From the IMG/VR virus record IMGVR_UViG_3300007775_000014, positions 1 to 45,587 of that record: a stretch of DNA of 45,587 nucleotides; one strand, 5' to 3'. Each line of letters begins with the position of its first letter. The first letter of the stretch is position 1. Source of the DNA: a virus. A program made the translations under genes and the position numbers. The notes beneath the pieces are model-generated. The model worked only from the letters and a program-made list of their open reading frames with translations, was not told the origin of the DNA and searched no databases. Below, one piece after another: positions 2,208 through 44,471 of the stretch.

Positions 2208-2210
2208 GGG

Positions 2211-6598: not shown

Positions 6599-6638
6599 AG
6601 TATCCTCTCCTCCTCCGCCGGTCAGGCGGCGCGGCGGG

Positions 6639-7100
6639 TTAGCTGATGAAGTCCGCCGTCAGGTCGGGCGAGACGTAGAGCGGGTCCGCCTGCTCGAAGT
6701 AGACGACGCACTCGTCGCCGGCCGTGACCAGGTCGACCTGGACGCCGACGTGCGTCGCGCCGGCGAGCACCTCGCGGACCTGTTCGACGTTCGCCTCGAG
6801 CCAGATCGTGTCGCCCACGGCGTCCGGCGCGCTCCCGAGCGCGTGGGTCGCGACGATGGTCGCGCCGGTCCCGTCGGCGGCCGTGGCCGCGATGATGCTG
6901 AAGGCGGTGACGCTCCCGGTGCCGACGCTCCGGAACAGGCCCGCCACGAACCGCCGGAACAGCGCGATGGGGAGGCACTTGTTCCCGGCGCCCTGCGGCT
7001 GACCGAGGTCGACCACGTTGAGCGCGCCGTCGATGTCGTAGTCGACGAGCCGGCGCACCCGGTTCGACAGCTCGCGATTGGCAGTGTAGGTGGCGGTCAT
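6639..7100 (-). CDS. Virion-module protein of unknown function (153 aa)
   Basis: No family recognised. It begins MTATYTANRELSNRVRRLVDYDIDGALN. The middle (VGTGSVTAFSIIAATAADGTGATIVATHALG) is Ala/Thr/Gly-rich and probably beta-structured, and it ends YVSPDLTADFIS. A GAGGAG ribosome binding site lies 9 bases before the ATG at 7100. It is the first gene after the major capsid protein, so a decoration, scaffolding-associated or head-completion role is possible but unproven. Confidence 0.72.
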   Translation of the reverse strand: MTATYTANRELSNRVRRLVDYDIDGALNVVDLGQPQGAGNKCLPIALFRRFVAGLFRSVGTGSVTAFSIIAATAADGTGATIVATHALGSAPDAVGDTIWLEANVEQVREVLAGATHVGVQVDLVTAGDECVVYFEQADPLYVSPDLTADFIS

Positions 7101-7151
7101 CCTCTCAAGCTCCTCTCAGTGTAGTGCAGCCCCTCGTGGACGCCCGGGCGG

Positions 7152-8588: not shown

Positions 8589-8868
8589 GGCGCGTCCACT
8601 CCCAGGCTGTGCGAGCGAGGGGGTGGTGTAGCCCTTGACCGGGGAAGTACAACGGAGACAGATAGCGGAGTGGGCGGGTAGCCCGAGCCCGTACCGGAAC
8701 GACTGCCGTGACGCAAGTCGAACCATCCGTTAGCCAAGGACTACACCGCCCGCTGCCGCGTGACGAAGTAATCGAATGCGTCCTTCGGTTGTCCGTCCGT
8801 GCCCCCCTCGCCACCTGGTCGCTGCCGCGTGCCGGGCTGCGGCGAGGGCCGGAGCCGTGAGCCCGAAG
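8589..8868. other. Noncoding gap before the capsid gene
   Basis: About 280 bases separate the protease stop from the capsid start. The capsid frame is open through part of it, but without family-like sequence. I see a GGGAG-type ribosome binding sequence just before 8588 and no convincing hairpin. It may hold a capsid promoter or leader. I cannot identify a clear minus-10/minus-35 pair. Confidence 0.5.
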
Positions 8869-9804: not shown

Positions 9805-11387
9805 GATACGCTCCTTCCCAGGTGGTCGTCCAGCAGCGCCAGTAAGATAGTGGGCCGGCGCTCGAGCCAGGCCATTGGACTGGTCTCGGCTAGCTCACGC
9901 TCGGCGGTCCGGGTCACGGCCTGCACGAGCTGGTGGAACTCATAGCCCGGTAGGTCGACCGTCTCCGCGAAGGGTGCTAGCGTGCGGGCCACGAAATCCT
10001 CCGCCCGGTGGAGCTCCGCCGCCCGACTGCCCACATCCGGGTGCCGGTCGATGACGTTGCGCGCCTCGGCCGCCGCGATCCGCCGCACGGCGTCGGCCAG
10101 GAGCGGCCGCGGGATGGCGCTGGCTTGCGGCGTGGCGCCACGCCGGGGCGGGGGTGGCGCGCTGGCGGCCGCGCCGCCCCCCGCATTCGGCGCCGCCCCC
10201 GGCGTGGTCTCCATGTAAGCGTCGCCCCCCTCCCGCGGCCCCATGTCCTCCTTCTGCCGGATCTCGTTGGGGCTGAGCACGCCCATTTCGCGCCCGGTCT
10301 TGTAGGCGTTGTATCGGTCGAGCAGGTTCCCCTTCACCAGCTCCTCGAAGACGAACCCGACGAAATAGCCGCGGTCGATCTCCTCGGGCGTGAGTAGGGC
10401 CAGCTCGAGCGCGCGGGCCCAGCGGTCGGTCCAGGGTTTCAGGGTGAAGTCGACGAAGGCCTGTTTGAACTCGGCCACGCCGGTACCCCACGCCGTCGTC
10501 TTGTCCTCCATGCCAATAAGGAAGCTGGGCACGCGCCAGTAGCGCGCCACGTCCGAGACCTGGAACTTGCGCGGGTCGACGATGAAATCGCTGTCGCCGT
10601 TCCGGCCGAGCTCCTGCACCTCGACGCCGTGCGTGAGCAGCATGGTTCGACTCTTGTTCCGCCAGCCGGCATAGACCCGGCGGATCCGGTCCTCGAGCTC
10701 GGCCCGCTGCTTGTCGTTGAGGCTGCCGGGATGCTTCATCACCAGCCGGCCGGTGGCGTCGTGCTTGAAGAAACCGCCCACGAATGCCTCGCCCGCGGCC
10801 GCCACGGCGATCGCCTCGCGGGCCAAGCTCGCCCGAGCGAGACCCGTGAAGCCGTCCTCGCTGAGGTCGCGGATGTGCAGCGTCATGTCGTTGAAGCTGA
10901 TGTGCGGCTCGCCACCCTTCGGGTCGCGCTCGGTGTACCGGATCCGGTGGTTCGTAAGTTGCTCGATGAGCGTCCACTCGGGCCGCATCGGGATCAGCTC
11001 GAGCCGGGTCGGGGTTGGCTCCTGCAGTCGGGCCAGCCCGTTGCCCCGGAGACAGAGGTTCATCGTGGTGCCGCTCATGAAGTCGAACGTGCTCATCCAA
11101 CTGTTGGGTCGGTAGCGGAGGGTTCGATAGGCCGGATGCTCCCGGGCCCGGCGCTTCTCGCCGTTGTCGTTCCGTTGGAAGAGCAGGCATGGAAGCGAGG
11201 CCACCGTCTCGGCGATGAGGCTGACGGCCGCGAAGACCGCGCTCACGCGCTTGGCGCTGCTCCCGTCGATCGGGTAGCCCGCGAACGTTTCCGAGAACTC
11301 GTTGACGGCCTGGTACCAGCGCGGGTCGACGGTCGTCCAGGTCACGTCTTCCCGGAGCCGCGGCGTGGCAAGTCGATCGAAGATCAT
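9792..11387 (-). CDS. Portal protein, HK97 family (531 aa)
   Basis: It forms the dodecameric ring through which DNA enters the head. From the ATG at 11387 it reads MIFDRLATPRLREDV. It contains hallmark portal segments: SAVFAAVSLIAETVASLPCLLF near residue 55, HPAYRTLRYRPNSWMSTFDFM, then GNGLARL and HIRDLSEDGFTGLA. Downstream are FIVDPRKFQVSDVARYWRVPSFLIGM and WARALELALLTPEEIDRGYFV. The C-terminal 130 residues carry a Pro/Ala linker and a helical extension. It overlaps the small membrane gene by 4 bases and the protease by 13. Confidence 0.93.
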   Translation of the reverse strand: MIFDRLATPRLREDVTWTTVDPRWYQAVNEFSETFAGYPIDGSSAKRVSAVFAAVSLIAETVASLPCLLFQRNDNGEKRRAREHPAYRTLRYRPNSWMSTFDFMSGTTMNLCLRGNGLARLQEPTPTRLELIPMRPEWTLIEQLTNHRIRYTERDPKGGEPHISFNDMTLHIRDLSEDGFTGLARASLAREAIAVAAAGEAFVGGFFKHDATGRLVMKHPGSLNDKQRAELEDRIRRVYAGWRNKSRTMLLTHGVEVQELGRNGDSDFIVDPRKFQVSDVARYWRVPSFLIGMEDKTTAWGTGVAEFKQAFVDFTLKPWTDRWARALELALLTPEEIDRGYFVGFVFEELVKGNLLDRYNAYKTGREMGVLSPNEIRQKEDMGPREGGDAYMETTPGAAPNAGGGAAASAPPPPRRGATPQASAIPRPLLADAVRRIAAAEARNVIDRHPDVGSRAAELHRAEDFVARTLAPFAETVDLPGYEFHQLVQAVTRTAERELAETSPMAWLERRPTILLALLDDHLGRSVSCPN

Positions 11388-14007: not shown

Positions 14008-15176
14008 GTTCCCTCCAGGCCGAGGGTCCGCTCTACGCCGCCTACTTCCCGGTACGCTTCGATGAACGCTTGGGCGACTTGCGGGACGATGGCATTGCCG
14101 TAGGCGCGGAGGCGTCCCACGCGGCCGGGAACCCCATCAACCAGCGGCTTAAGGCCGGATTCAATCCGCCGCGCTTTCCCGTCGGCGCAGGGGAGCCAAG
14201 TTGCGTCATTCCAACTTGGTCCTTGAGGTTGACGCAACCGCCCTTGGTCTTTCGTGCTGCGAGGTTGCCCGACGGAAGGTGATCCATCGTGTTCGGTGTC
14301 GCCCATCCCGCTCTCGCCGCAAGACCCGCATCCATCGAGAGTGACTTGCCCGTCATCGCATCCGTGTAATCCCGGCCCGTCTTTCCGTCGCTCGCCGTTG
14401 GGGTCGTCCATCCCGCTCTTGCCGCATCCGCTGGGAGGGCTCCCCCCGACTGGTTCGGGCCGTCCGTGGCCCGCAGGGTGTTCCAGCCCGCCAATCTCGC
14501 CTGCCGATCGAGGTGGACGTTTCCCCCTCCCTCGGTTGCCGTCGTCCGTCCGCCGCTCCCGTCGGTCGCTTTCGGCGTCGCCCAGCCCGCCACTGAGGCC
14601 ACATCCTGAAGCGTCGTCGAATGCCCCCCCGCTTTCCGCTTGTCTGGATGCTGGGGGCCGCCCCGGTCGTAACTGTCCGGCGTCGGCCACCCACCATAGC
14701 CGTTGGCGGATGTGGGGCGCCCCGACGCTCGGAGCGCACAGATCGGCGGCCCCGACGGCATATCCCAGCTCTTCCAGGTCAACGCGTACTCCGGCGAGCC
14801 AGTGGCGTCCAAGCTTCGACGCAACCTGCTCTCCAAAGACCACTGGAGGTCGGCACTCGGCGAGGAGCCGATGAAAAGCGGGCCATAGGTGCCGCTCGTC
14901 GCCCAGCGCGTGAGCTTGGCCCGCCCCGCTGAAGGGTTGACAGGGGCAACTCCCGGTCCAGACGGGTCCGTCCCAGCCGGCCCACCGGAGGGCGAGGGGC
15001 CATCCGCCGATCCCGGCGAAGAAATGGCATTGGTCGTACCCTCGGAGGTCGTCGGGCTGGACTTCGGTGATCGAGCGTTCATCCACGTCCCCTGCCGGGA
15101 GTTCGCCGGCCGCGATCAGGTTTCGGAGCCACTGGGCGGCATAGGGCTCCCACTCGTTGTAGTAGACGGAAATCAC
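14004..15176 (-). CDS. dcm: DNA cytosine-5 methyltransferase (390 aa)
   Basis: It transfers a methyl group from AdoMet to cytosine C5 in phage DNA, probably protecting it from restriction. Motif I is FAGIGGW at residues 53-59 and motif IV is CPCQPFSGAG with catalytic Cys79. Motif VI is FGEQV at 114-118 (Gln replaces the usual Asn), motif VIII is HIRQRLWW at 155-162, and motif X is RAYGNAIVPQVAQ near the end. The segment between VIII and X is Gly/Asp/Arg-rich repeats (GLGDAESDRRER). The GTG at 15176 overlaps the previous stop (GTGA) and gives the family-like start MISVYYNE. A second long frame overlaps it (see findings). Confidence 0.94.
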   Translation of the reverse strand: MISVYYNEWEPYAAQWLRNLIAAGELPAGDVDERSITEVQPDDLRGYDQCHFFAGIGGWPLALRWAGWDGPVWTGSCPCQPFSGAGQAHALGDERHLWPAFHRLLAECRPPVVFGEQVASKLGRHWLAGVRVDLEELGYAVGAADLCAPSVGAPHIRQRLWWVADAGQLRPGRPPASRQAESGGAFDDASGCGLSGGLGDAESDRRERRTDDGNRGRGKRPPRSAGEIGGLEHPAGHGRPEPVGGSPPSGCGKSGMDDPNGERRKDGPGLHGCDDGQVTLDGCGSCGESGMGDTEHDGSPSVGQPRSTKDQGRLRQPQGPSWNDATWLPCADGKARRIESGLKPLVDGVPGRVGRLRAYGNAIVPQVAQAFIEAYREVGGVERTLGLEGT

Positions 15177-17135: not shown

Positions 17136-17688
17136 CGGTTCCCTCCTTCGGGCGCGGGCGGACGGCATCCTCGTCGGCCGCCGTCCATTCATCTGTCACT
17201 GCCGCTTCGTCCCGGATGATGGCGTCGGCAAGAGGTTTCCCTTGCTCGGTTCCCTCCTCGGCGGCACGGTGCAGGACGGTACGCACGGCTTCGCGAATCG
17301 TTCCCTCGTAGTATTCCGCGCCCATGCCGTGACTTTCTTTAACAGCCTTCTCGATGGACCACATCGCCACTCGATGCAGCCTGTCTACGGCGCGGTCGAT
17401 GACGGCGCGGGTGTCTGTCGGTCGGGCCTCGGCGGGAGGCTGGGCGAGCAGGTTACGAATGCGCTGCTCGCACAGAGTGATCGCCTCTGCACGCGACTCG
17501 AAACCTCCCGCTCTCCATGCCGCACCCTCGTCGCGACAAATCTTCGCCGCGTCTTCAAGGGCCTGCGCCCGGACGGCTTGGCGAAGCTGCTCACTGGCCG
17601 CCGCCATCAGACTCCACCGCTCTTGTTTCGACTCCGGCTCACACGCATCAAGCAATGCCGCCAACATAGACTTGAGGGAATCACTCAT
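17128..17688 (-). CDS. Helical early protein of unknown function (186 aa)
   Basis: From the ATG at 17688 behind GAGGAGCC: MSDSLKSMLAALLDACEPESKQERW, then VRAQALEDAAKICRDEGAAWRAGG and LCEQRIRNLLAQPPAEA. Mostly helical with scattered cysteines. The segment from VRAQAL to LAQPPAEA resembles the end of the neighbouring gene, and a 29-base identical DNA repeat underlies it. The protein ends KEGTDG, encoded by the next gene's initiation sequence. No function recognised. Confidence 0.72.
   Translation of the reverse strand: MSDSLKSMLAALLDACEPESKQERWSLMAAASEQLRQAVRAQALEDAAKICRDEGAAWRAGGFESRAEAITLCEQRIRNLLAQPPAEARPTDTRAVIDRAVDRLHRVAMWSIEKAVKESHGMGAEYYEGTIREAVRTVLHRAAEEGTEQGKPLADAIIRDEAAVTDEWTAADEDAVRPRPKEGTDG
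17132..17148 (-). repeat. Repeated translation initiation sequence, copy 2 (EGTDG type)
   Basis: Minus strand AAGGAGGGAACCGATGG, matching copy 1 at 16861-16876. It starts the 92-aa membrane protein and codes the tail of the 186-aa protein. Confidence 0.7.
17424..17452 (-). repeat. 29-base direct repeat, copy 1
   Basis: Identical to 17708-17736 over 29 bases. Codes LLAQPPAEA inside the 186-aa gene. Confidence 0.85.
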
Positions 17689-18140
17689 GGGGTTGGCTCC
17701 TCTGGCGGGGCCTCGGCGGGAGGCTGGGCGAGCAGGGCGATCCGTTCGGCGCAGTCTTCCACCACCTGCTGAAGCGGTTCGGCCACCTGCTTGCTGTAGG
17801 CCACGAGATCGTCGAAGCCCTCTCTGAGGGCCTGCGCCCGGACGGCGGCCACCTGCGGACGACAGTTCCACGCAGCGCTGGCAATCTCCGCGCTTGCAAT
17901 CGTCGGCCCGACGGCGCCGCATTCATCACACTCAACGGCGTATATCACCTGGCTGGCGACTCGCTGGCGTTCGTTGAGGGAAACCTCGCCGCCGCAAAAC
18001 GGGCAGGTTTGTAGCGACTCACTCATGTCGTTGGCTCCTCCGGTGGGGGCGCCAGGCTTGGCCACCTCTTTCCCCTTCTTGAGAGATGCCTTCAGGGCCT
18101 CCATCAGATCGACGACCTTGTTCTCCTTCGGATCACTCAT
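17685..18140 (-). CDS. Lar-like zinc ribbon protein with N-terminal extension (151 aa; internal start 18026)
   Basis: The segment MSESLQTCPFCGGEVSLNERQ, then VECDECGAVGPTIASAEIASAAWNCR, matches the Lar restriction-alleviation / zinc-ribbon pattern (CPFCGG, CxxCGxxGP, AxxxWN). In lambdoid phages Lar modulates host restriction. The same frame extends upstream to an ATG at 18140, adding MSDPKENKVVDLMEALKASL and a Lys-rich linker. Both 18140 and 18026 have strong GGAGGAGCC ribosome binding sites, so a long and a short (113 aa) form may both be made, or an older gene has fused. The C-terminus EEPTP is coded by the next initiation site. Confidence 0.75.
   Translation of the reverse strand: MSDPKENKVVDLMEALKASLKKGKEVAKPGAPTGGANDMSESLQTCPFCGGEVSLNERQRVASQVIYAVECDECGAVGPTIASAEIASAAWNCRPQVAAVRAQALREGFDDLVAYSKQVAEPLQQVVEDCAERIALLAQPPAEAPPEEPTP
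17708..17736 (-). repeat. 29-base direct repeat, copy 2
   Basis: Identical to 17424-17452. Codes LLAQPPAEA at the end of the Lar-like gene; 284 bases from copy 1. Confidence 0.85.
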
Positions 18141-18337
18141 GGGGTTGGCTCCTCCGGAGGTGGCGAGGCGTCGCCCTCCTCCAACGTCACTTCGTAGCTC
18201 ACACCACCACCATAACTCGGCTTGCGCTCCTCTACGCCCGTCACGTTGTGCTTGCCTGTCAATTGCCCATCGAAGTAGGCTTGTAGCGCTACTAGGACGG
18301 TCGCCTTCGTGATCTCTAGCTTCGTCGTGCCTTTCAC
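18137..18337 (-). CDS. Small protein of unknown function (66 aa)
   Basis: The GTG at 18337 overlaps the previous stop. It reads MKGTTKLEITKATVLVALQAYFDGQ, a strand-helix unit, then VTGVEERKPSYGGGVSYEVTLEEG. It ends ASPPPEEPTP, where EEPTP is written by the next ribosome binding site. Compact alpha/beta character. No family recognised. Confidence 0.72.
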   Translation of the reverse strand: MKGTTKLEITKATVLVALQAYFDGQLTGKHNVTGVEERKPSYGGGVSYEVTLEEGDASPPPEEPTP

Positions 18338-18708
18338 GTTTCGTCCTCCGGTGGGGGTGAGGCCAGGCTGGCGAGGATGGCCGACGAGACTTCAGGCGCT
18401 GCATGGGTTGGAAGGACCGGGTTGGGGCCGCCGTCGATCACCAGTCCATCCGCCCGCTGGTGCCAAATTCGGTTGAGCGCCCATTCCAGCGTGTACGCCA
18501 CCAGCGCCTCGTCCGTGGTCCGTTCGTTCTCCTCCCGCAACACGGCGGTGGCGCGGGCGACCTCGGCGGCGATGGCCTCGCGCAACTGCGTCCGTGCCGC
18601 GTCCAGTCGTTGCACCTGCCGAGTCGATGGGCCAACCGTCGCATACGAGGTGCTGAGGGAATGCTGAGCGCCCCCGAATTCGTCGATGGCGGCGTCGATG
18701 GTTGTCAT
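18334..18708 (-). CDS. Helical protein of unknown function (124 aa)
   Basis: The ATG at 18708 behind AGGAGG gives MTTIDAAIDEFGGAQHSLSTSYATVG. A long helix follows (RQVQRLDAARTQLREAIAAEVARATAVLREENERTTDEAL), then ALNRIWHQRADGLVIDGG. The end, LASPPPEDET, resembles the tail of the next gene. Unknown function; probably an early-expressed accessory gene. Confidence 0.72.
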   Translation of the reverse strand: MTTIDAAIDEFGGAQHSLSTSYATVGPSTRQVQRLDAARTQLREAIAAEVARATAVLREENERTTDEALVAYTLEWALNRIWHQRADGLVIDGGPNPVLPTHAAPEVSSAILASLASPPPEDET

Positions 18709-23928: not shown

Positions 23929-24964
23929 AGCGCTCGAGCTCCTTGAACTTCGGGGTGAACCGGAACTGTCGGCTTGGGGTGCGGGTCCGCTGGTGCGTCG
24001 CCACGAGCGCATCGAATGCCTCGACCGGCGCATGCTCGGCGAGGGCGCGGGCGACGGCTTCCCAGTCGGTGGTCGGCTTGTACTGCACGTTGCTCCAGCT
24101 CGCGGTGAACTCGGGGCTGCTCACCCCGTACCGGTCGCCGATGGCCGCCTTGAGCACGTTCATGGCCCGGTCGGCGTACTGCTGCCATTCGTCGAGGCGC
24201 CACCGCGCCAGCGTGAGGGCCGCGGCCGCCTGGCTCTCCGCCTCGGTCGCCGGCGCGCACCGCTTCTCGCCGACGAACTGGGGGTGCTTCGCCGCGAGGG
24301 CCGCCGCGGTCGCCGGGTGCGCGTCGATGGGGGCCGACTCGGACCCGAGCAGGTAGCGCTCGACGTACTCGAGCGCGCGGCGCTCGATCTCCCGGCCGAG
24401 GGTCTCGTCCCAGCGGACGGTGTAGATGCCGGTGTCGCCGCCCGTGCCGAACAGCACGGCCACGTGCCACTCACGGTAGCCGGTGCACAGCATGCCGCCG
24501 TAGCACTGCAGAAACACGTCGGCCGGGACCTCGTCGGTGCCCCGCTCGCCCCACTCGCGCTTGAGGAACTCGCTGCGCCACTTGCACTCGAGGCCAGCGT
24601 GCCGGTCGGGGAAGACGGCCAGTGCGTCCGGCGAGGCGAGCAGCCGCCCGCTCGGGTGCCGCACGCTGTCGGGCCGGTAGAGCACCGTCACCACCTGCGG
24701 GTAGGTCCGCGCAAACCACTGCGCGATGTACGGCTCCACGACCAGGCCGAGGTCCGCCGCGCCGCCGGCGGGGCGCGGGGCGAGCTCGCCCCGCTTCCGG
24801 AGCTGGAGGGCGAGCGGCGAGGTGTACTTGCCGAACCCGAGCGCCGCGGCGAACTCGCTGGCCCCGAGCCGCTCGGCTCGGTAGGTCTTCGGATCCTCGC
24901 CCGGCGGGACGGGGGCCGGGTCGCGCTCGGCGGGGGTCGGGTAGAAGGTGCGCTCGTGACTCAT
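23795..24964 (-). CDS. YqaJ-type exonuclease (lambda exo-like, 389 aa)
   Basis: It resects double-stranded ends for recombination. GASEFAAALGFGKYTSPLALQLRKRGE (residues 34-60) matches the YqaJ N-terminus. LGLVVEP includes the first conserved Glu at 77. Asp113 in SPDALAVF and Glu126-x-Lys128 in LECKWR form the PD-(D/E)xK site. VFLQCYGGMLCTGYREWHVAVLFG gives the Q-motif helix. The C-terminal half (about residues 215-389) is an extra helical region. The start at 24964 overlaps the kinase stop by 4 bases. Confidence 0.9.
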   Translation of the reverse strand: MSHERTFYPTPAERDPAPVPPGEDPKTYRAERLGASEFAAALGFGKYTSPLALQLRKRGELAPRPAGGAADLGLVVEPYIAQWFARTYPQVVTVLYRPDSVRHPSGRLLASPDALAVFPDRHAGLECKWRSEFLKREWGERGTDEVPADVFLQCYGGMLCTGYREWHVAVLFGTGGDTGIYTVRWDETLGREIERRALEYVERYLLGSESAPIDAHPATAAALAAKHPQFVGEKRCAPATEAESQAAAALTLARWRLDEWQQYADRAMNVLKAAIGDRYGVSSPEFTASWSNVQYKPTTDWEAVARALAEHAPVEAFDALVATHQRTRTPSRQFRFTPKFKELERYVRDEKFRSLFPGYWVDLPGFDPALLAQPPGTRTGGDGPAAGGA

Positions 24965-25560
24965 GCGTGCCTCGTGGTGGCGTCGAGCAGGCGGAGGATG
25001 TAGGGCCACGCGTCCTCGGAGGACAGGCGCTGGACGGCGAGACCGGCGGCCTCCGCGCGCACCCGCGCCCGGGTAATGACCTCGTGCCGCCGCGTGGTGT
25101 TGGCCGGATTGAACGGCCGCGTGTCGCCCCGCGTTTGCCGCCGCTCCACGACCCGGGCAAGGCAGAGGGCGAGCGGCGTGTCCAGAAACACATGGACGTA
25201 CTGGTGGCCCGTGACCTGGAGCTCGGCTGCCAGCACCTCGTATCGTCGGAGCTCGCTGGCCAGCAGGCCCTCGAACAGCACGTGATAACCCTCCGCGAGG
25301 TAGCGCCGGATGCGTAAGGCGATCTCGTCCTGGGTGGGGATGGTGTCGCAGCCGCCGCACGTCGGCTCGTAACTTCCCAGCACGATGAGCGGAAGCTCGC
25401 CCGTGCTGCAGTAGGCGATCGGGTCGCGGCGCCGCTTGCCGGCCAGGGTGGGGTCGAGGTACGGATCGCGGATCGCCGTGAAGGGCCACTGGGCGAGCGC
25501 CTTGCGGACGACGGTCGTCTTGCCCGAGCCGGAGTTGCCCCGGAGCTGCACGACGATCAT
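24961..25560 (-). CDS. P-loop kinase, candidate 5-hydroxymethyl-dU DNA kinase (199 aa)
   Basis: MIVVQLRGNSGSGKTTVVRKALAQW contains the Walker A motif GNSGSGKTT at residues 8-16. YHVLFEGLLASELRRYEVLAAEL and YVHVFLDTPLALCLARVVERRQTRG supply Walker B-like strands and an Arg-rich lid. FNPANTTRRHEV follows. The fold is that of small P-loop kinases. In thymidine-hypermodifying phages such an enzyme phosphorylates 5-hmdU in DNA before amino-acid transfer. The neighbours (hydroxymethylase, flavoprotein, transferase-like proteins) support this. An unrelated nucleotide kinase cannot be excluded. Confidence 0.72.
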   Translation of the reverse strand: MIVVQLRGNSGSGKTTVVRKALAQWPFTAIRDPYLDPTLAGKRRRDPIAYCSTGELPLIVLGSYEPTCGGCDTIPTQDEIALRIRRYLAEGYHVLFEGLLASELRRYEVLAAELQVTGHQYVHVFLDTPLALCLARVVERRQTRGDTRPFNPANTTRRHEVITRARVRAEAAGLAVQRLSSEDAWPYILRLLDATTRHA

Positions 25561-26042
25561 CGGATGACCTCCTCTGCCGCCAGGTGCTCGAGGATGAGCC
25601 GCTCGATGCGTCGCGCGACGGCGCGCGCCCGGCCCCGGCCGGTAGCCGCGCCTTGATAGGCCCGGCGGAGGTCCGCCGGCCAGTCTGCGACCAGGAAGAC
25701 AGAATCGATCTCCGTTTCGGTGGCGTAGTCGGCGATGCCGGCGGTGCCTTTCAGCCCGAGCAGCACCGCTGCGACTTCATGGATGTTCGCGTCTCCGCCC
25801 GAGTAGCGGGAGACCGCCGGCACACGCCGCCGGTCGAGAAGGACCGCCCAACCCGCGATGCACGCCGTGGTCCCGCAATGGTCGATGGATCCGGGCGGAA
25901 GCTCATCCAGTAAGAAGATGTCGGGGCGCCGCCGGTCCGGTGGTCTCTCCGGGACTACATAGAAATCCATGTTGAGGCGCTCCGGGTGCTCGAGAATGAC
26001 GTCTCGGACACAGAGCAGCAGCGGCACGTTCAGCTCAGCCAC
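25557..26042 (-). CDS. Conserved 'CGTxxCIAGWA' protein of unknown function (161 aa)
   Basis: It contains HCGTTACIAGWAVLLDRR near residues 55-72. This motif recurs in small proteins of phages, plasmids and actinobacteria, with no known role. GGDANIHEVAAVLLGL and SVFLVADWPADLRRAYQ follow. It lies between the kinase and the next modification-cluster gene, with 4- and 8-base overlaps. Whether it belongs to the modification pathway is unclear. Confidence 0.75.
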   Translation of the reverse strand: MAELNVPLLLCVRDVILEHPERLNMDFYVVPERPPDRRRPDIFLLDELPPGSIDHCGTTACIAGWAVLLDRRRVPAVSRYSGGDANIHEVAAVLLGLKGTAGIADYATETEIDSVFLVADWPADLRRAYQGAATGRGRARAVARRIERLILEHLAAEEVIR

Positions 26043-26397
26043 GGTCCGCCTCCTCGAGATCGAGCTCCCGGAGCATCGCGGCGTACACGGCCGTGTCGGT
26101 GGCGCTGTCGGCGTGGCCGCCGTTGGCGAACTGCGCGGCGTAGCGCATGAGCTTGGTCACCGCGAGCTCGAAGCAGAAATAGCGGCTGAAGTCGGCGGCC
26201 GTCTGCAGCTGCAGGCCGGCCGGGAAGATCGCCTCGAGGGCCCGACCGTGCCGCTTGTAGTGGGCGGCGTAGGTGGTGTTGCGCTCCTCGAAGAGCGCGG
26301 CGGCGCCGCGGAGCACGTCGGCCGCGTCCGGGCGCCGCGTGGTGGGGTCGGCTGCGGGCGCCGACGGGCGAGTGGAAGCACGACGATGACGAGCCAT
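26035..26397 (-). CDS. Helical MazG/Nmad1-like protein (120 aa)
   Basis: After a disordered basic start (residues 1-23) it reads DVLRGAAALFEERNTTYAAHYKRHGRALEAIFP, then AADFSRYFCFELAVTKLMRYAAQFANGGHADSATDTAVYAAMLRELD. Compact four-helix proteins with 'ER..TY', 'K..RY' and 'D...Y..ML' occur in phages. They are related to the nucleotide-modification-associated DUF1599/Nmad1 or MazG-like groups. This could mean hydrolysis or salvage of a modified nucleotide. The family assignment is tentative. Confidence 0.55.
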   Translation of the reverse strand: MARHRRASTRPSAPAADPTTRRPDAADVLRGAAALFEERNTTYAAHYKRHGRALEAIFPAGLQLQTAADFSRYFCFELAVTKLMRYAAQFANGGHADSATDTAVYAAMLRELDLEEADRG

Positions 26398-27473
26398 CAG
26401 GGTATCTCCGGTGAGGGTGGAGCGGGGTCGCGAACCTCGCCCGGGGGCGCGGCTGGTGCGCGCGGAGTAAAGGGGATCTGCACGCCGAACCGCGCGCTCA
26501 GCCAGCCATAGGCGGCGAGGCGCCAGTCATCCGCCTCGATGCGGCTGGCGATCGCGACGGCGGCGGCCGCGCCTGCCACCCGCGCCCGCCAGCACCGCAC
26601 CATGGGCTGGGCAACCTCGAGGAAGAACGGGTTGTGAAAGAGCCGCTCCGCCCCGTCGAGCAGCCACTGCTGGAACGCCACCAGGTCCACGTCGAGCGCG
26701 TCGGGGTTGAGCGCGAGCGGGGTCGGCCGGACCCCGTGCGCGGTGTATGCGTCGGGCAGGGTCGCGTATTCGGTCGCCGAGCGATACCGCCACACCGCCT
26801 CGTAGACATGGGCGTTGGCGACGACCTGGGTGAGCGTGCCGGGCTGGAACTCGGCACGCGCGGCGAGGTACTCGAGCAAGAAACTAAACTGCACGGCGTT
26901 GGCGCCGAGCGTCCCCCACACGAGGTCGCCGCTCCGCTGCAGCACCACGAGGTCGAGGCGGCCGTCCGTCCCGCGCTGGACGGTCACGGTGAGGTTGCAG
27001 GGCAGATCCTTCGGCGCCTCGTACCGGAGCGCCTGGGTGCGTTCGTAGCGGGTGTCCCACATCTGCAGCACCACGCGCCGGGTCGCCGGATTCGCGCGGA
27101 GCTCGCGCACCGCGTCGTCCAGCTGATCGGTGCCGAACGCTCCGCGCCACCGCCAGCCATAGGCCCCGTGCCAGGTGGCGCCGTCGTCACTGAAGTCGTC
27201 CACCCGAGGTAGGAACTCGCGCAACGGCGCGATGCGCCGGCCGCCGCCGAGCATCCACAGGCTTTCGGCCAGGTGGAAGAACGGGTTCGCACGGCGCGTC
27301 GGGCTGAGGAGGATCCGCTCACGGGGGCACAGCGTGTGGATGACCAGCGGGCCGGGCAACTGGCGCACCCGGCCGCCGCGGGTCTCCACGGGAACGCCGA
27401 GCGCTTCGACGAACTCCACGGCCTGCGCCCAAGCATCGTTGACGTTGCGGGCGCGGATGACGTGTAGGGTCAT
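26397..27473 (-). CDS. Thymidylate synthase-family enzyme, likely dUMP hydroxymethylase (358 aa)
   Basis: It would convert dUMP to 5-hydroxymethyl-dUMP with methylene-tetrahydrofolate. ANPFFHLAESLWMLGG (62-76), DDGATWHGAYGWRWR (96-110) and RRVVLQMWD (132-140) are thymidylate synthase-family segments. Cys159 in KDLPCNLTV is the nucleophile, and QRSGDLVWGTLGAN (179-192) the phosphate/base motif. Asn192 aligns with the uracil-recognising Asn rather than the Asp of dCMP hydroxymethylases. The usual His after the catalytic Cys is replaced by Asn, a change fitting hydroxymethylase-type relatives. The start at 27473 overlaps the flavoprotein stop. Confidence 0.85.
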   Translation of the reverse strand: MTLHVIRARNVNDAWAQAVEFVEALGVPVETRGGRVRQLPGPLVIHTLCPRERILLSPTRRANPFFHLAESLWMLGGGRRIAPLREFLPRVDDFSDDGATWHGAYGWRWRGAFGTDQLDDAVRELRANPATRRVVLQMWDTRYERTQALRYEAPKDLPCNLTVTVQRGTDGRLDLVVLQRSGDLVWGTLGANAVQFSFLLEYLAARAEFQPGTLTQVVANAHVYEAVWRYRSATEYATLPDAYTAHGVRPTPLALNPDALDVDLVAFQQWLLDGAERLFHNPFFLEVAQPMVRCWRARVAGAAAAVAIASRIEADDWRLAAYGWLSARFGVQIPFTPRAPAAPPGEVRDPAPPSPEIP

Positions 27474-28285
27474 GCAATGAACCTCCCCCGCTCTCGGCGG
27501 AGCTGCTGGCGCAGCCTGAGGGCCCAGTGGGCCGCGAGGACCGTGGTGCTCTTGTTGCCCCCGGTGGCGACCATGAGGCCGCGCTCGAGCCGTTGGAAGA
27601 TGCCCAGTTTCGCGCCCACGGCCGTCGGACACGGAGCGGCGGTGTGGCCCAGGTAGCCGCGAGCGCCGGCGAGCTCGAGCCGGGTACGCGCGGCGGCCCA
27701 GCGCGCCGGGTCGTTGGCCTTGTAGGAGCCGCCGTCCCCACCCCACCAGTACCCATCCGCGTGTTGCGCGAGCACCAGGTGGCGGAACGGGGCCCACATC
27801 TTGAGGACCGGGCCCGGCGCTTCCTGGAACCGGAAGGCGGCGCCCCACCGCGGCGCCACGCGACACCGTACCAGCTCCGCCGACCAGGCCCCCGCCGCCA
27901 CGATGACGAGGTGCGCCGTTGCCTCGGTCTCCGCCTCGCCCTGCTTGACGTAGCGGACCTGACCAGGACCGACGGTCCGGACCCGCGCCGGGATGATGAA
28001 CTCGGCCGGGGTCGCCTCGAGCACGCGGCTGCCCTCCAACTGCGGCACCCGCCGACCGCGAAGCTCGGCGCCGAGGAAGCCGTAGCGCTCGTCGAGCGAG
28101 GCAAGCACGTCCCGGACCGTCGGCACGAAGGGTGTGATCCAGCTCTCCACGAGCAGGCCGATGGAGAGCGGCGAGGCGCCCGGCCGCCCGGGGTCCGCGA
28201 ACCAGCGCACCTCCCAGCCGTCATCCAGCAGCATGTGGCCCAGCTGGGCGCCGGCGAGGCCGTGCCCCACGATGAGGGCGCGCAT
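27470..28285 (-). CDS. FAD-dependent DAO/glycine oxidase-like enzyme, candidate flavin lyase of DNA modification (271 aa)
   Basis: MRALIVGHGLAGAQLGHML shows the GxGxxG dinucleotide motif at residues 7-12. HLVIVAAGAWSAEL is the second FAD-contact strand (cf. 'V..AAG.W'). LMVATGGNKSTTVLAAHWAL is the C-terminal FAD motif of the DAO family. At 271 aa it is shorter than typical glycine oxidases. In phages such as M6 and PaMx11, flavin-dependent lyases cut a glycyl group on thymidine to aminomethyl-dU. The adjacent kinase, ThyA-like and transferase-like genes make this the favoured role. Confidence 0.75.
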   Translation of the reverse strand: MRALIVGHGLAGAQLGHMLLDDGWEVRWFADPGRPGASPLSIGLLVESWITPFVPTVRDVLASLDERYGFLGAELRGRRVPQLEGSRVLEATPAEFIIPARVRTVGPGQVRYVKQGEAETEATAHLVIVAAGAWSAELVRCRVAPRWGAAFRFQEAPGPVLKMWAPFRHLVLAQHADGYWWGGDGGSYKANDPARWAAARTRLELAGARGYLGHTAAPCPTAVGAKLGIFQRLERGLMVATGGNKSTTVLAAHWALRLRQQLRRERGRFIA

Positions 28286-28755
28286 CAGGTAGTGCCGGCC
28301 CGGAGTTGCTGCGCGGCGGCCGTCGCGGCGGTCCACACCAGCTCGAGCACCGACGGCCGCGCCGCCGGCGTGAGGAACATGGGGTCGGGCACCCGGGTCT
28401 CCCCGGCGTAGGTCGCGAGACAGATGAGCCGCTCGTCCCGGTCGCCGCGGGGCAGCAGGCCAGCCAGCCGGCGGCGGTTCCCGCTGTCCATGTAGAAGAT
28501 GTGCGTCGCCTCGGCCAACTCGGCTGGCTCGACCAAGCGGCTCCGGTGCGGGTCGAGCGCCTGCTGGGGCGGCGAGCTCGCGCCCTCGGCGAGCACCTTG
28601 AGCCGGGCGAAGGCCCGCACCCAGGGCGGGGCCCGGCGGCCCGCGGTGACGAAGCCGCCTTGGCGGACCTCAACCCCGGCGCACGCGAACGCGAGGGCCG
28701 CCAAGGGACTCCGGCACACGTTCCCGTGGCACACGACGTAGACAGACGGCGTCAT
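28285..28755 (-). CDS. Low-molecular-weight phosphotyrosine phosphatase-like protein (156 aa)
   Basis: MTPSVYVVCHGNVCRSPLAALAF contains the CX5R(S/T) phosphate loop with Cys9 and Arg15. DPHRSRLVEPAELAEATHIFYMD and VPDPMF (general-acid Asp about residue 126) complete the LMW-PTP fold. Such enzymes remove phosphate from tyrosine, arsenate reductase relatives reduce arsenate, and in this cluster a phosphate or pyrophosphate on a modified nucleotide is another possible substrate. It overlaps the flavoprotein by one base (TGATG) and the next small gene by 4. Confidence 0.85.
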   Translation of the reverse strand: MTPSVYVVCHGNVCRSPLAALAFACAGVEVRQGGFVTAGRRAPPWVRAFARLKVLAEGASSPPQQALDPHRSRLVEPAELAEATHIFYMDSGNRRRLAGLLPRGDRDERLICLATYAGETRVPDPMFLTPAARPSVLELVWTAATAAAQQLRAGTT

Positions 28756-28868
28756 CCGACACTCTCCTCTCCGGCCAGCAGCCGGGCAATGTTCTCGCGG
28801 GCGCGAGGGTGGTCGCGTCGGGTAGCGCGATAGCGCCGCTCGAGGCGGTGATATTGTGGCTTGCTCAT
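28752..28868 (-). CDS. Tiny basic protein (38 aa)
   Basis: MSKPQYHRLERRYRATRRDHPRARENIARLLAG is very basic. Its ATG at 28868 and TGA at 28752 overlap the neighbours by 4 bases (ATGA both sides), so it is probably real. No function recognised. Confidence 0.6.
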   Translation of the reverse strand: MSKPQYHRLERRYRATRRDHPRARENIARLLAGEESVG

Positions 28869-29830
28869 GCCGGCACTTCGTCCCGGGCGAGCACCGCCCC
28901 GGTATCGACGTAGACCCGCCGGCGCAGGAGCTCGATCCCGTGCCAGCCGCGCGCTTCGCCGAGGTAGGCGGCCGGGAGCGCCGCCGCGCGGGCGCGCCAC
29001 CAGAGCCGGAATCGCCCCTCCTCGCGGAGCCGCGCCCCCCAGTGCGGTTCGCCCGGGCGGATGATCGGCTCGGCCTCGAGGAACCGCTCGAGCATCTCGT
29101 CGATGTCGTTCCCGACGTAGTACTTGCCCCCGTGGAGCCCCTTGAAGTTGCAGCAGACCGTCTCCAACTCGTCCCAGGTCCACGTCTCGCCCTGGGCGCT
29201 GACCCACGTCTGGAGCTCGTCGGCCGCGCCGAGGAGGTGCCGCACTGGCGCTCGCGGATCGACGCCGGTCACCAGCGCCAGGCCCTGAACCGGGTAGCTG
29301 CCGGGTTCGGGTAGCATGCTCGGGAACTCGGCGTTGAGCCCGTGCACGTGGATCAGCAGGTCCATCCACTTGAAGGCCGCCCAGTTACCGATGCTGTAGA
29401 GGCCGCGGAGTGCCCGATAGATCACGCGGAACCGCTCGGTGGGGGTCCGGACGCCCACCGCTTCCGAGTGCAGCCAGCGGTGGAACCCGCCCGCCAGCGC
29501 GAGCGCCGTCGCGTAGCCCAGACAGGCGCGGGTGAGTAGCTTGCCGCGGCGGGCATGCCGACGCTCCGAGCCGTAAGGCTGCAGCTGACACGCCTCGCAT
29601 GGCACCTCGCCAGGTTCGGGGTGGTGCTGCCAGGCGATGATGGCGCTGGGGAGGTGGTAGAACTGGACGTAGAGGAACGTGAGCCAGTGGGCCGACTCCG
29701 GGTCGAGCGCCGCGTCCCGGTAGGCGGTGCGTAGGACGTCATAGACGGGGTCGAGGTCCCGGCTCCGGTGCATGAGCTGGCCAAACCGGAGGAACGCCCC
29801 CCGTCGGCCCTCAACGGTCGCTCGGCTCAC
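28865..29830 (-). CDS. Putative amino acid:DNA transferase-group protein, first of pair (321 aa)
   Basis: Helical protein with aromatic-rich motifs: FLYVQFYHLPSAIIAWQHHP, then CEACQLQPYGSERRHARRGKLL, GGFHRWLHSE, GLYSIGNWAAFKWMDLLIHVHGLN and CNFKGLHGGKYYVGNDIDEML. This style resembles the aGPT-Pplase/HMUDK-helical proteins that install amino acids on 5-hmdU. The four Cys in the CEAC region could bind metal. The GTG start at 29830 forms a GTGA overlap with the second member of the pair. Family placement is by pattern and neighbours. Confidence 0.62.
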   Translation of the reverse strand: MSRATVEGRRGAFLRFGQLMHRSRDLDPVYDVLRTAYRDAALDPESAHWLTFLYVQFYHLPSAIIAWQHHPEPGEVPCEACQLQPYGSERRHARRGKLLTRACLGYATALALAGGFHRWLHSEAVGVRTPTERFRVIYRALRGLYSIGNWAAFKWMDLLIHVHGLNAEFPSMLPEPGSYPVQGLALVTGVDPRAPVRHLLGAADELQTWVSAQGETWTWDELETVCCNFKGLHGGKYYVGNDIDEMLERFLEAEPIIRPGEPHWGARLREEGRFRLWWRARAAALPAAYLGEARGWHGIELLRRRVYVDTGAVLARDEVPA

Positions 29831-30717
29831 GTGGGCGCTCCCTGGTAGCGGCGCCGGTAGGGATTGACCCCTAACCGGGCGCGCTCGTACTTGTAGAACT
29901 CGCAGAGGCTGTGCTCCACGTCCCGCGCCAGCAGGGGGCGAGTGGTCGGCTGGTCCCCCGTGATCGCCGCCAGGAGCGCCTCGAACAACGGATATGGTTT
30001 CCGGCCGGCCGCGAGCGGCCCGAAGACGAGTTTGAGCCCACGCAAGGCACCGGGCCCGAGGTTGGCGTAGGTCGCCCGGTCCGGGGCCTCGGCCAGGAGC
30101 GGGAGATAGGTGAGGTCGCTGGCGATCTCGTAAGCGAGGAACCCGCCGACCCACGCATGTTGCTGCAGCCGCTCTACCGTGCGCGCTACCGTGACCCGTT
30201 CCCCGTCGGTGCCGCTCCAGTAATGGCGCCAGTGGTGGCGATAGTCCCACATCGGGCCCCACACGTTCCGCACGAGGTGGCCAGGTTTGTCACTGCCCTC
30301 GGCTGCCGCGATCACATAGGCCGGTGCGAAGACCTTCTCCTTGCGGGCCGCCCGCGCGCGCAGCAGGTCGAGCGCGGTGAGCGGCTCCCAGGCATCCGGC
30401 GAGGCAAACAGCCCCGCCTGCTCGAGCTCGTCAAGCGTCTCCGGGAGGTTGAGGAACCGCACGATGGCCGCGAGGAACCAGCTGTCCACGCCCCAGCTCG
30501 GCCAGGCGCGGCCGTAGAGCGCGATGGCGTGCACGCTGCCCCGGTCGAGCTCGCGGAAGACGTTGCAGAAGTGCAGCTCGCGGAAGAGTGGGTCGGTCGT
30601 CCACGGCCAGCGCGCGCCGACCCGGCGCAGCTCGGTGATCTGGTGGCGCTCGCTGATCCAGCGCCGGAACCCGGCATAGCCCGGCCACTCGGTCGGCACC
30701 GGCAAGGCGCTGGTCAT
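29827..30717 (-). CDS. Putative amino acid:DNA transferase / HMUDK-helical-domain protein (296 aa)
   Basis: FRRWISERHQITELRRVGARWPWTTDPLFRELHFCNVFRELDRG (residues 17-60) has the ERHxI...RR.G...PWT.DP......F.NV(F/Y)RE.DR pattern of the alpha-glutamyl/putrescinyl thymine pyrophosphorylase and HMUDK-helical group. The end DVEHSLCEFYKYERARLGVNPYR also matches. In hypermodifying phages these act on 5-hmdU in DNA with the kinase. The start at 30717 and GTGA/ATGA overlaps couple it to the cluster. The exact step is inferred. Confidence 0.75.
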   Translation of the reverse strand: MTSALPVPTEWPGYAGFRRWISERHQITELRRVGARWPWTTDPLFRELHFCNVFRELDRGSVHAIALYGRAWPSWGVDSWFLAAIVRFLNLPETLDELEQAGLFASPDAWEPLTALDLLRARAARKEKVFAPAYVIAAAEGSDKPGHLVRNVWGPMWDYRHHWRHYWSGTDGERVTVARTVERLQQHAWVGGFLAYEIASDLTYLPLLAEAPDRATYANLGPGALRGLKLVFGPLAAGRKPYPLFEALLAAITGDQPTTRPLLARDVEHSLCEFYKYERARLGVNPYRRRYQGAPT

Positions 30718-30914
30718 GGCGCCTCCCGCGTCACGGTCGCGAGGCCGACGCTGTCCCACCGGCCGCGGTCGATCTCCTCGCGGACCTGGGGCAGCGGTTT
30801 CGCCTGGACCCCGACGAGCTGCTCGCCGTCGCGCCAGACCGCCAGCCACTCGGCCATGTCCTTCAGCCCGCGTCGGTAGATCTCGAGCTCGCGATTACTC
30901 ACATGCGGATTCAC
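30714..30914 (-). CDS. Small protein in the modification cluster (66 aa)
   Basis: The GTG at 30914, behind AGGAG, gives MNPHVSNRELEIYRRGLKDMAEWLAVWRDGEQLVGVQAKPLPQVREEIDRG. It has one helix and a short beta segment. No family recognised. Coupled on both sides (GTGA and ATGA). A subunit or regulator role is possible. Confidence 0.68.
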   Translation of the reverse strand: MNPHVSNRELEIYRRGLKDMAEWLAVWRDGEQLVGVQAKPLPQVREEIDRGRWDSVGLATVTREAP

Positions 30915-31444
30915 GAATAGCTCCAGGAAAAAGGGGTGTGGCCCCGCCGCCGCACGACCGCGGTGCGGAGTTCCGCCATAAACCGCCGACCCGCCGGGCG
31001 ACCCCAGGCCCGGGCTATGTAGATTCGGAACTCGCGGCCGCCGCCGCGTTCCCGGCTCCGGTCGCAGATCACCGCCTCGCGACACTCGACTGGCTTGATC
31101 GCATGAATGGCGCAGGCGCCGGTCGGACGGTCGTAGAACGTGCAGCCCATACGCTCCGCGTCGGAGAAGCCTCGCGGGAAGAGCTCCCCCGGCGGGAGCG
31201 ACGCGGCCGCCGGCAGCACGACCCACACGGTGCTGTCGTCGCGCAGCCCGCCCAGCTCGTATCCTCCGAACCAGCGGTCGAACGCGAGGTGCGTGTCGAA
31301 CAGCGCCGCCGGCGGCTGCTCCAGCATCGCGGCGAGGAGCCGCACATCTCCCGGGCTCATCCAGCCCGGGAACCGCTCGCAGGCCGAGCGGCACACGCCG
31401 CACCCGCACTCCGGGCCGGACCAGCACCGCGCGGGCGCCGTCAC
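30911..31444 (-). CDS. YkgJ-like cysteine cluster protein (177 aa)
   Basis: CWSGPECGCGVCRSACERFPGWMSPGDV (residues 7-34) carries five cysteines and a PGW motif. Downstream, CTFYDRPTGACAIHAIKPVECREAVICD supplies the second cluster with the 'P.ECR..IC' signature of YkgJ-type zinc or iron-chelating proteins. The metal may be iron or an Fe-S cluster, suited to oxygenation or radical chemistry. The GTG start at 31444 overlaps the upstream gene. Its place beside the modification genes suggests involvement, but this is inference. Confidence 0.72.
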   Translation of the reverse strand: MTAPARCWSGPECGCGVCRSACERFPGWMSPGDVRLLAAMLEQPPAALFDTHLAFDRWFGGYELGGLRDDSTVWVVLPAAASLPPGELFPRGFSDAERMGCTFYDRPTGACAIHAIKPVECREAVICDRSRERGGGREFRIYIARAWGRPAGRRFMAELRTAVVRRRGHTPFSWSYS

Positions 31445-32010
31445 GGGCGGTCCTCCCGGCGCCGGCTGGACACCTCGCCACGCGCCTCCTCGTCCAGATG
31501 CTTGCGGACCGCGAGCCCGAGCGTGATCAGGGCGTACTCGAGCCAGGCGACCACGCTGCGCGGCGTCGACGGCGCCGGCGGCCCGCGGTGCAGGATGAGC
31601 GCCGTGAAGCAGCCCGCAAACGACCGCGCGGCCCAGGCCCCCGAGCCGCGCCAGGCGGCCGCGCGGCGGAACCCGGCCACCTGGTATCGGCTTGCCAGAT
31701 CGAGCTCGAAGACGCCGAGCGCGGGGTCGAGGGCCGCCTCGAGGTACCGGCCGCCGCCGGCCACCCAGTCGGGATCCTGCCAGGTGCCGGGAACCTGCTC
31801 GCGGCCCGCGTAGAGCACGTGCGGAAGGAGCGCGAGCACCGCCGGGTAACACCACAGCAGCCCGTCACCCAGCCGGGTGAGCCCCGGCTCCGGGCGGGTG
31901 GCCAGGAGCTCCTGCGCGGCGAGCCGTTCCATCTCCACGACGGTGAGATACGGGGCGGCCCCTTCGGCGCGGAGCGCCGCGAACCCGAAGCCGAGCGTCG
32001 GGCCCGTCAC
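31441..32010 (-). CDS. Protein of unknown function (189 aa)
   Basis: The GTG at 32010 gives MTGPTLGFGFAALRAEGAAPYLTVVEMERL, then LLWCYPAVLALLPHVLYAG and VFELDLASRYQVAGFRRAAAW. The last third is helical and basic. It is hydrophobic in part but has no clear membrane helix. No family recognised. Joined by GTGA overlaps to the YkgJ-like gene and the zinc ribbon gene. Confidence 0.7.
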   Translation of the reverse strand: MTGPTLGFGFAALRAEGAAPYLTVVEMERLAAQELLATRPEPGLTRLGDGLLWCYPAVLALLPHVLYAGREQVPGTWQDPDWVAGGGRYLEAALDPALGVFELDLASRYQVAGFRRAAAWRGSGAWAARSFAGCFTALILHRGPPAPSTPRSVVAWLEYALITLGLAVRKHLDEEARGEVSSRRREDRP

Positions 32011-42933: not shown

Positions 42934-43667
42934 CAGTCCAACACCTCGAGGAGCAGATCCCGCGACTGGTCGCCGAGCATGAGCGCTAGCCCGATGGCAT
43001 CCACCGTGCCGAAGGTATCGAGGCCGTTGCTGTTGAGGTACAGCGTGGGCGTCCCGGCCCAGGCCGACGCCAGCGCCAGGGCGGAGCTCGCCGTGGATGA
43101 AGTCTCGCCCGCGCCGTTGAGCGACTGGTGGAGTTGGACAACGCCGGTCGCGGAGAGCGTCAGGCGCAGGCGGACCCGGTCGTTCACGCTCGGGCCGGCG
43201 CCCAGCGACGACGACACGAAGGTCGTCCCGTTGTGGTGCTGGGCGACGTAAGCCGAGCCGTTGCTAATGATGCTTAGGACCGGCGTGCTTGCCGCGTCGT
43301 CCGTCAGCGACAACAGGGGAAGCGACCCGGAGAGGGCGCCGTTCTCCATGAAATCGAGCAGCAGGCAGATCGACCGCGGCAGCAAGGGCAGTGCCCATTT
43401 GAGCGACTCGTCGACACCACCCCCCATGCGCAGCGCCACGAGGTCCTCGCCGCTGAACGTGGCGATCGTCCAGCGCGGGAGATAGTAGGGCAGCGTCAGG
43501 GCGACCGCGTCGGAGTCGAACGCGTTCCCGGCAGCCGCCCGGACGAGCGTGCCAGTCTGGCCGCTGCGGGCGTCGAGGCTCAGCTCGCGGGCCCGCCAGA
43601 CAAACGGGTAGCGCCACCGCCGCGCGAGCGGATCGCGGACATCCAGGCCGAGCGGAGGCAAGGTCAT
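42933..43667 (-). CDS. Tail protein (244 aa)
   Basis: MTLPPLGLDVRDPLARRWRYPFVWRARELSLDARSGQTGTLVRAA, later FSGEDLVALRMGGGVDESLKWALPLLPRSICLLLDFMENG. All-beta with jelly-roll character (RVRLRLTLSATGVVQLHQSLNG). Located between the distal tail protein and the tip protein and joined by a TGATG overlap, it is probably a baseplate or adaptor component. Confidence 0.7.
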   Translation of the reverse strand: MTLPPLGLDVRDPLARRWRYPFVWRARELSLDARSGQTGTLVRAAAGNAFDSDAVALTLPYYLPRWTIATFSGEDLVALRMGGGVDESLKWALPLLPRSICLLLDFMENGALSGSLPLLSLTDDAASTPVLSIISNGSAYVAQHHNGTTFVSSSLGAGPSVNDRVRLRLTLSATGVVQLHQSLNGAGETSSTASSALALASAWAGTPTLYLNSNGLDTFGTVDAIGLALMLGDQSRDLLLEVLD

Positions 43668-44470
43668 GGTTCGGTCTCATAGAACGCGAGGCGCGCGGTG
43701 CCGCTGCTCACCTCGAGCGTCGGGTACTGCGCCGTCTCGATGTCGCCATCATAGGGATTCAACGGCCGCGGGAAGTCGCCCTGCCCAGCCACCAGGAGCT
43801 CCACCGCATCGGCGACCGTGCCGTCGTCGGAGTAGCTGACGGCCCGGTCCCGGGCGTTGACCCGCAGATAATCCTCCGAGGCGGTGATCGTCGTGCCGGT
43901 GAAGTCGAGCTCCCAGACGACGGCACCGCCGGCCGTCCGGTAGGTCACGACCGGATCGGTCCCACCGATGAGGTCGAGGATCCAGGAGCAGGGTGCCCGA
44001 CCCAGCGCGAGCGGAAACCGCTCGCCGGCGGTGTCGAGGTGGAGCAGCGTCGGCTCGGGCGCCTCCCAGAGCGGCACCGGACACAGGAAGGTCAGAGTGG
44101 CGGCGATGCTCCCGCTCGAGAAGTCGGCCACGCCCGGCTCGAACTCGAGCTGCGGCGCGTAGCCGTAGGTGCGGCGCGTGAGGACGCCGTCGCTTGCCAC
44201 GAGGGTAAGCAGCCCGGCCCCGACCAGGTACTTGAGCCGCTGCTCAGCCGCCACTCGGTCGCTGTAGGTCGCCGTGTCGACGAGGACCCGGAACGGGAGT
44301 TCGCGCGGCTCGCCCATGGTCGCCAGGAGGGGCACGACACCGATGCCGCCGAGCACCGGCGCCGTCGCCAGTCGTCGCGGCGATGGCGCTCGGAAGTTCG
44401 ACCGGCCGACCACGCGGACCCCGAGGCGCCCATAGGTCAGTGCGACCCCGTTGACGGTCAGGCTCGGCAT
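43664..44470 (-). CDS. Distal tail protein (Dit-like, 268 aa)
   Basis: It caps the tail after the tape measure. MPSLTVNGVALTYGRLGVRVVGRSNFRAPSPRR, then GVVPLLATMGEPRELPFRVLVDTATYSDRVAAEQRLKYLVGAGLLTLVASDG and IAATLTFLCPVPLWEAPEP. The N-terminal strand set and 'ATLTFxCPxPxW' match distal tail proteins (Dit/Sipho_tail). The ATG at 44470 follows the tape measure stop by 1 base. Good fit by order and length. Confidence 0.8.
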   Translation of the reverse strand: MPSLTVNGVALTYGRLGVRVVGRSNFRAPSPRRLATAPVLGGIGVVPLLATMGEPRELPFRVLVDTATYSDRVAAEQRLKYLVGAGLLTLVASDGVLTRRTYGYAPQLEFEPGVADFSSGSIAATLTFLCPVPLWEAPEPTLLHLDTAGERFPLALGRAPCSWILDLIGGTDPVVTYRTAGGAVVWELDFTGTTITASEDYLRVNARDRAVSYSDDGTVADAVELLVAGQGDFPRPLNPYDGDIETAQYPTLEVSSGTARLAFYETEP

Positions 44471-44471
44471 C

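Follow-up and report, generated by a model that had tools for sequence, protein, structure and literature searches.

Thymidine hypermodification in phage PaMx11 is encoded by a gene set comprising a glycinyltransferase (gp46), a flavin adenine dinucleotide (FAD)-dependent lyase (gp47), an acetyltransferase (gp48), a kinase (gp49), a helical-domain protein (gp50) and a thymidylate synthase (TS) homologue (gp51), with the five core families lying side by side. Phage M6, whose modified base is 5-(2-aminoethyl)-deoxyuridine (5-NedU), has radical S-adenosylmethionine (SAM) and pyridoxal phosphate (PLP) genes instead of the lyase, and actinophage-like clusters such as those of Mycobacterium phage Phelemich, Gordonia phage Wooper and the loci L132, L140 and L145 carry a Tet/JBP-like gene. 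Here we describe a minus-strand operon in a 45.6-kb IMG/VR virus record with 70% GC content (the window, 45,587 nucleotides in full), which we read as following the PaMx11 type of thymidine hypermodification, with glycine and a flavin lyase, and as having lost an amidoligase that acted later in the pathway; for the pathway class we put the probability at about 0.82. The phage very probably turns part of its DNA thymine into an amino-acid-derived, restriction-resistant base.

All five PaMx11 core families are present in the window, and the models of its transferase and lyase match gp46 and gp47 best. The window differs from PaMx11 in having neither an acetyltransferase nor an HD protein, in adding a low-molecular-weight (LMW) phosphatase and an amidoligase stub, in its gene order, in the clade of its transferase and in a changed arginine of its lyase. 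The TS homologue, kinase, helical-domain and transferase families are shared with M6, but the radical SAM and PLP genes are not; profiles for these two and for acetyltransferases found nothing in the window, in line with the original prediction, which had been made by reading the sequence. Tet/JBP-type clusters resemble the window in a transferase with a similar C-terminal extension and, in L132, L140 and L145, in a transferase-ligase-phosphatase-lyase order, whereas the window has a TS homologue and helical-domain protein and those clusters a Tet/JBP-like gene. The loci L044, L169 (phage Simon) and L171 contain the TS homologue, kinase, helical-domain protein, transferase, lyase and phosphatase as the window does, but they add a full amidoligase and often an Nmad5 gene; in the window the ligase is reduced to a stub, and the extras are different genes without such linkage.

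From the gene families, predicted folds, key residues, gene order and amidoligase remnant we infer every reaction and the final base. The TS homologue would make 5-hydroxymethyl-deoxyuridine monophosphate (5-hydroxymethyl-dUMP), which would be converted to the triphosphate and incorporated into DNA, where the P-loop kinase and the helical-domain protein would phosphorylate the 5-hydroxymethyl-deoxyuridine (5-hmdU). The transferase would then exchange the phosphate for an amino acid; this is most likely glycine, in which case N-alpha-glycinylthymidine would result, and the FAD lyase may trim this toward 5-aminomethyl-deoxyuridine (5-aminomethyl-dU). The predicted product is one of these two bases, and we give 5-aminomethyl-dU slightly less than an even chance of being the final one. 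The phosphatase would be the surviving half of an amidoligase-phosphatase pair and, as a guess, may clear phosphate that remains after the kinase or the ligase has acted.

The genes run from 32246 down to 24961, with stops and starts mostly overlapping, and their GC content at third codon positions (GC3) is 0.80-0.94, against 0.71 for a 38-codon open reading frame (ORF). The single minus-strand operon originally placed at 24961-31444 holds in its coordinates and strand. Its features, with lengths in amino acids (aa), are as follows.

24961..25560, minus strand: P-loop 5-hmdU DNA kinase, 199 aa (PF18748 9e-7, AAA_33 3e-9)
25557..26042, minus strand: 161-aa protein, pathway role unsupported (PHROG 889, 1e-9)
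26035..26397, minus strand: 120-aa "Nmad-like" protein, pathway role unsupported (C-terminal part of PHROG 4889, 4e-15)
26397..27473, minus strand: TS homologue, predicted dUMP hydroxymethylase, 358 aa (PF00303 1.2e-19, PHROG 5131 9e-83)
27470..28285, minus strand: flavoprotein of D-amino acid oxidase (DAO) fold, N-alpha-glycinylthymidine lyase family, 271 aa (8z2o 1.3e-9; model TM 0.80)
28285..28755, minus strand: LMW-phosphatase-like protein, 156 aa (PF01451 7e-8)
28752..28868, minus strand: 38-codon ORF, probable amidoligase C-terminal remnant (17.8 bits to an amidoligase C-terminus profile)
28865..29830, minus strand: amino acid:DNA transferase (ADDT), 321 aa (PF18724 8.7e-17; 8z2m fold match)
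29827..30717, minus strand: 5-hmdU DNA kinase helical-domain protein (HMUDK_hel), 296 aa (PF18723 4e-36)
30714..30914, minus strand: 66-aa ORF (overlapping frame, GC3 0.89)
30911..31444, minus strand: YkgJ-like Cys-rich protein, 177 aa, pathway role unsupported (PF03692 0.0077, sub-threshold)
31441..32010, minus strand: 189-aa protein of the same operon, just outside 24961-31444 (overlapping frame, GC3 0.93)

Core pathway enzymes

The TS homologue exceeded the curated cut-off of its Pfam profile, shares 40-42% identity with its PaMx11 and M6 counterparts (42% with gp51) and retains nearly all conserved residues, defined throughout as those kept at 95% or more within each family. Among them are the catalytic Cys159 and Asn192, which reads the dUMP base, so that the dUMP-type TS-like enzyme first proposed for this gene stands, and we predict it to be a dUMP hydroxymethylase. 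The small P-loop kinase matched the 5-hmdU DNA kinase profile HMUDK_HMUD1 above its curated cut-off as well as AAA_33 in Pfam, is 40% identical to gp49 and retains 11 of 11 conserved residues. Several clusters elsewhere are arranged differently: L186 and L197 have two or three 5-hmdU-kinase-like genes each, and by profiles 47 helical-domain loci show only a helical-domain protein and a TS homologue, with no recognised transferase or kinase.

Two helical proteins had been assigned to the HMUDK-helical and transferase families, and profile searches placed them there, with no unrelated family as the best match of both. The helical-domain protein scored above the cut-off for PF18723 and is 34-38% identical to M6 gp55 and PaMx11 gp50, deviating at 7 of 43 conserved sites. 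The transferase likewise exceeded the curated cut-off for PF18724. Its model, built from 42 family members (pLDDT 92.7), found only 8z2m and 8z2n as significant PDB matches (E 7.5e-5, probability 1.00, TM 0.54-0.62), both of them the PaMx11 gp46 glycinyltransferase acting on 5-phosphomethyl-deoxyuridine (5-PmdU); DNA glycosylases and others came next at E of at least 0.25.

The flavoprotein and the extent of trimming

The flavoprotein gave no Pfam match at the limit used, and tblastn of it against phages found none. It matched the solved chains 8z2o and 8z79, annotated "Flavin-dependent lyase" and corresponding to PaMx11 gp47, at about 1e-9 to 1e-8, and its model (pLDDT 86.4) also had these chains as the best match (E 3.8e-19), followed at lower TM by glycine and sarcosine oxidases and other DAO-fold enzymes. 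The DAO/glycine-oxidase-like flavoprotein of the original prediction can therefore be narrowed by sequence and fold to the gp47 lyase family. In a tree, it falls within a supported set of mainly TS-type lyases, on a long branch.

Several observations weigh against a straightforward PaMx11-type pathway. Identity of the transferase to gp46 is only 22%, against 30-32% to actinophage transferases, and a well-supported branch places it outside the PaMx11/M6-type clade, although its own branch is long; the transferred amino acid may therefore not be glycine, although we consider glycine probable. Because family alignments went into both models, the fold matches are no independent test of family membership. 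Family searches recognised no phage DNA polymerase in the window, and known hypermodified phages are predicted to rely on their own (PMC6449724). Finally, the arginine kept in 37 of 37 lyase relatives is Cys219 here, and two near-invariant glycines are also changed, while most relatives deviate at no such position. An earlier alignment that gave the window lyase the invariant arginine was superseded by two further alignments placing Cys219 there. Lys249 of gp47, which differs between the two solved chains, was considered as a catalytic mark and set aside, being present in only 11 of 19 TS-type relatives.

In glycine oxidase and D-amino acid oxidase an arginine binds the substrate carboxylate, and by analogy the change to Cys219 could alter the substrate of the lyase or halt the reaction. 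The modification might then end at the amino-acid stage, as N-alpha-glycinylthymidine or another aminoacyl thymidine, with the FAD protein no longer a lyase or acting on a new substrate. The three changed positions favour such a stop, but the lyase retains its FAD-binding glycines and most TS-type lyase residues, its frame is open with a GC3 of 0.91 and its model is still closest to gp47, and on balance we regard an end at the amino-acid stage as unlikely, though a real contender. Of the branch proposed originally, the glycine and flavin-lyase assignment is supported by the core families and by the gp46 and gp47 matches, with glycine the probable amino acid. The trimming is uncertain: because the lyase lacks the invariant arginine, we place less confidence in a conversion to 5-aminomethyl-dU than in the transfer of an amino acid.

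A phosphatase paired with an amidoligase

The LMW phosphatase-like protein noticed in the original prediction is identified as such by Pfam, has the C-X5-R-S loop and the DP motif, retains all conserved residues and recurs in the hypermodification clusters of other phages, nearly always next to a putative amidoligase. The 267 related loci that we compared were collected using queries taken from such clusters, and some are near-copies, so that the counts express linkage, not frequency. The phosphatase occurs in 3 of 78 loci fetched with the helical-domain protein and in 6 of 79 fetched with the transferase; a putative, PF12224-like amidoligase occurs in 4 and 6 of these, respectively, and all six of the latter also have the phosphatase. 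A scan started from the ligase found the phosphatase in 71 of 80 loci and at least two hypermodification genes in 73, and a scan started from the phosphatase found the ligase in 27 of 39 foreign loci and at least two hypermodification genes in 27. Ligase and phosphatase occur together in 92 of the 267 loci, mostly less than 300 bases apart. The pair accompanies either trimming route and is present in clusters of the TS type and of the Tet/JBP type. One reading frame in a radical SAM/PLP-type cluster fuses the two (L015:8034-9398, which recurs as L183).

LMW phosphatases act mostly on proteins, and the enzyme might instead be directed at host proteins and sit in the operon by chance, unrelated to DNA bases. 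Besides this general preference, 11 of the 39 phosphatase-scan loci have no hypermodification gene in view. The association of the other loci with the amidoligase and with hypermodification genes, together with the fusion, argues against such a role, which we consider improbable. Its candidate substrates are a residual 5-phosphomethyl group or a phosphate arising from the action of the ligase.

The PaMx11 acetyltransferase probably acts on the amine that remains after the lyase reaction. An acetyltransferase was found in 12 loci (9 with a lyase), and the ligase in none of the 12, an exclusion with a chance of about 0.014 among lyase loci when kinship between loci is ignored. Since the two never share a cluster, the ligase may put an amino acid on the lyase-made amine, in place of the acetyl group that the acetyltransferase would add. 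In many ligase clusters neither a lyase nor a radical SAM gene is present, and the ligase may therefore also act on the transferred amino acid itself. A literature search on amidoligases and phage DNA modification, with the key papers of the pathway outside its reach, returned nothing relevant.

Several of the loci have further peculiarities. Tandem amidoligase genes occur in L199, L205, L209 and L214, in Tet/JBP-type or like clusters, and a full lyase-ligase-phosphatase cluster in L044 includes a NADAR-domain gene (2111-2680) and an Nmad5 gene (6878-7495). L258 is the sole other phosphatase-without-ligase case with pathway genes; its positions 5718-10601 hold a helical-domain protein, the phosphatase and kinase-like ORFs, and an amidoligase and a PF18724 transferase were not found there.

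A probable amidoligase remnant

No full amidoligase was found beside the phosphatase in the window, only a C-terminal stub. The 38-codon ORF between the transferase and the phosphatase, missed in the original prediction, scored 17.8 bits when compared with a profile built from 59 amidoligase C-termini. None of 20,000 shuffles did better than 12.5, and the frame of the ORF ranked first of 906 window ORFs (window-wide E 0.0048). It is about 45% identical to two ligase C-termini over about 35 residues, and in L132, L140 and L145 a full ligase occupies its gene position. Deletion of most of the ligase gene is, from these sequence matches, the simplest account. A divergent full amidoligase in the window was also sought and rejected, the best E being 0.88. 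Assembly error as the origin of the stub was set aside, as a second contig, 100% identical across 18,701 bases, carries it too, though both contigs may come from related samples. An unrelated or chance ORF would fit its shortness, lower GC3 and the modest score and window-wide E, but with no shuffle equalling that score, with the identity to ligase C-termini and with the exact ligase position in related clusters, this is very unlikely.

Equally doubtful is a decaying operon making no hypermodified base, or 5-hmdU only, to which the reduced amidoligase and the odd residues in the lyase and helical-domain protein could point, because the remaining frames are all open, coupled and high in GC3, the kinase and phosphatase retain every conserved residue and the TS homologue and transferase nearly all.

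We tentatively propose, at odds that do not quite reach even, that many phages use a DNA-acting amidoligase, with an LMW phosphatase as its partner, to cap or extend an amine-bearing hypermodified thymidine with an amino acid instead of acetylating it. The window would then derive from such a cluster, with the ligase gone and the phosphatase retained.

The phage and the remaining operon genes

Of the extras once thought to give a new variant of the pathway, only the LMW phosphatase, with its amidoligase remnant, can be upheld. The YkgJ-like, Nmad-like, 161-aa and 189-aa proteins have no relative in the 267 related loci, and pathway roles for them are therefore unsupported. The PF03692 match of the YkgJ-like protein lies below the cut-off, and the protein has no phage match and occurs in IMG/VR only in the sister contig; the Nmad-like protein reached no better than 0.09 for PF19905 and has no significant Pfam match. 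The 66-aa ORF matched no PaMx11 or M6 protein, and Pfam and PHROG searches gave no family for the 189-aa protein.

The siphophage assignment is backed by tape measure, Dit, portal, TerL, protease and major head proteins; RusA, a RecE-like exonuclease and a DNA methyltransferase are also encoded. No near DNA relative was found among 50,697 phage records, and the closest TerL among the phage matches listed is about 44% identical at most. The tape-measure gene runs off the left end (1-2210, minus strand) and Dit lies near the right end (43664-45587, minus strand), an arrangement that would fit an almost complete circular genome. The closest transferases from cellular genomes sit in actinobacterial contigs; this and the GC content hint at an actinobacterial host without proving one. 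Elsewhere in the window, a Lar-type restriction-alleviation domain at 17685-18404 (minus strand; PF14354, 3.6e-9) marks a second likely anti-restriction gene, and a DNA methyltransferase-like protein at 14042-15082 (minus strand; PHROGs 31772 and 1008, about 1e-19) may add further DNA modification.

Implications

The core of the operon adds one more case to a pathway already known; what is new about the operon is that the ligase has been lost, the phosphatase has stayed and the lyase has changed. On its own, the window adds one phage without near relatives whose DNA chemistry is predictable. The remnant of the lost ligase hints at a further pathway step, possibly an undescribed one. Across dozens of viral contigs the ligase-phosphatase pair is tied to hypermodification genes, which predicts DNA bases with an amide-linked amino acid and offers a role for phosphatase genes otherwise read as host-signalling enzymes.

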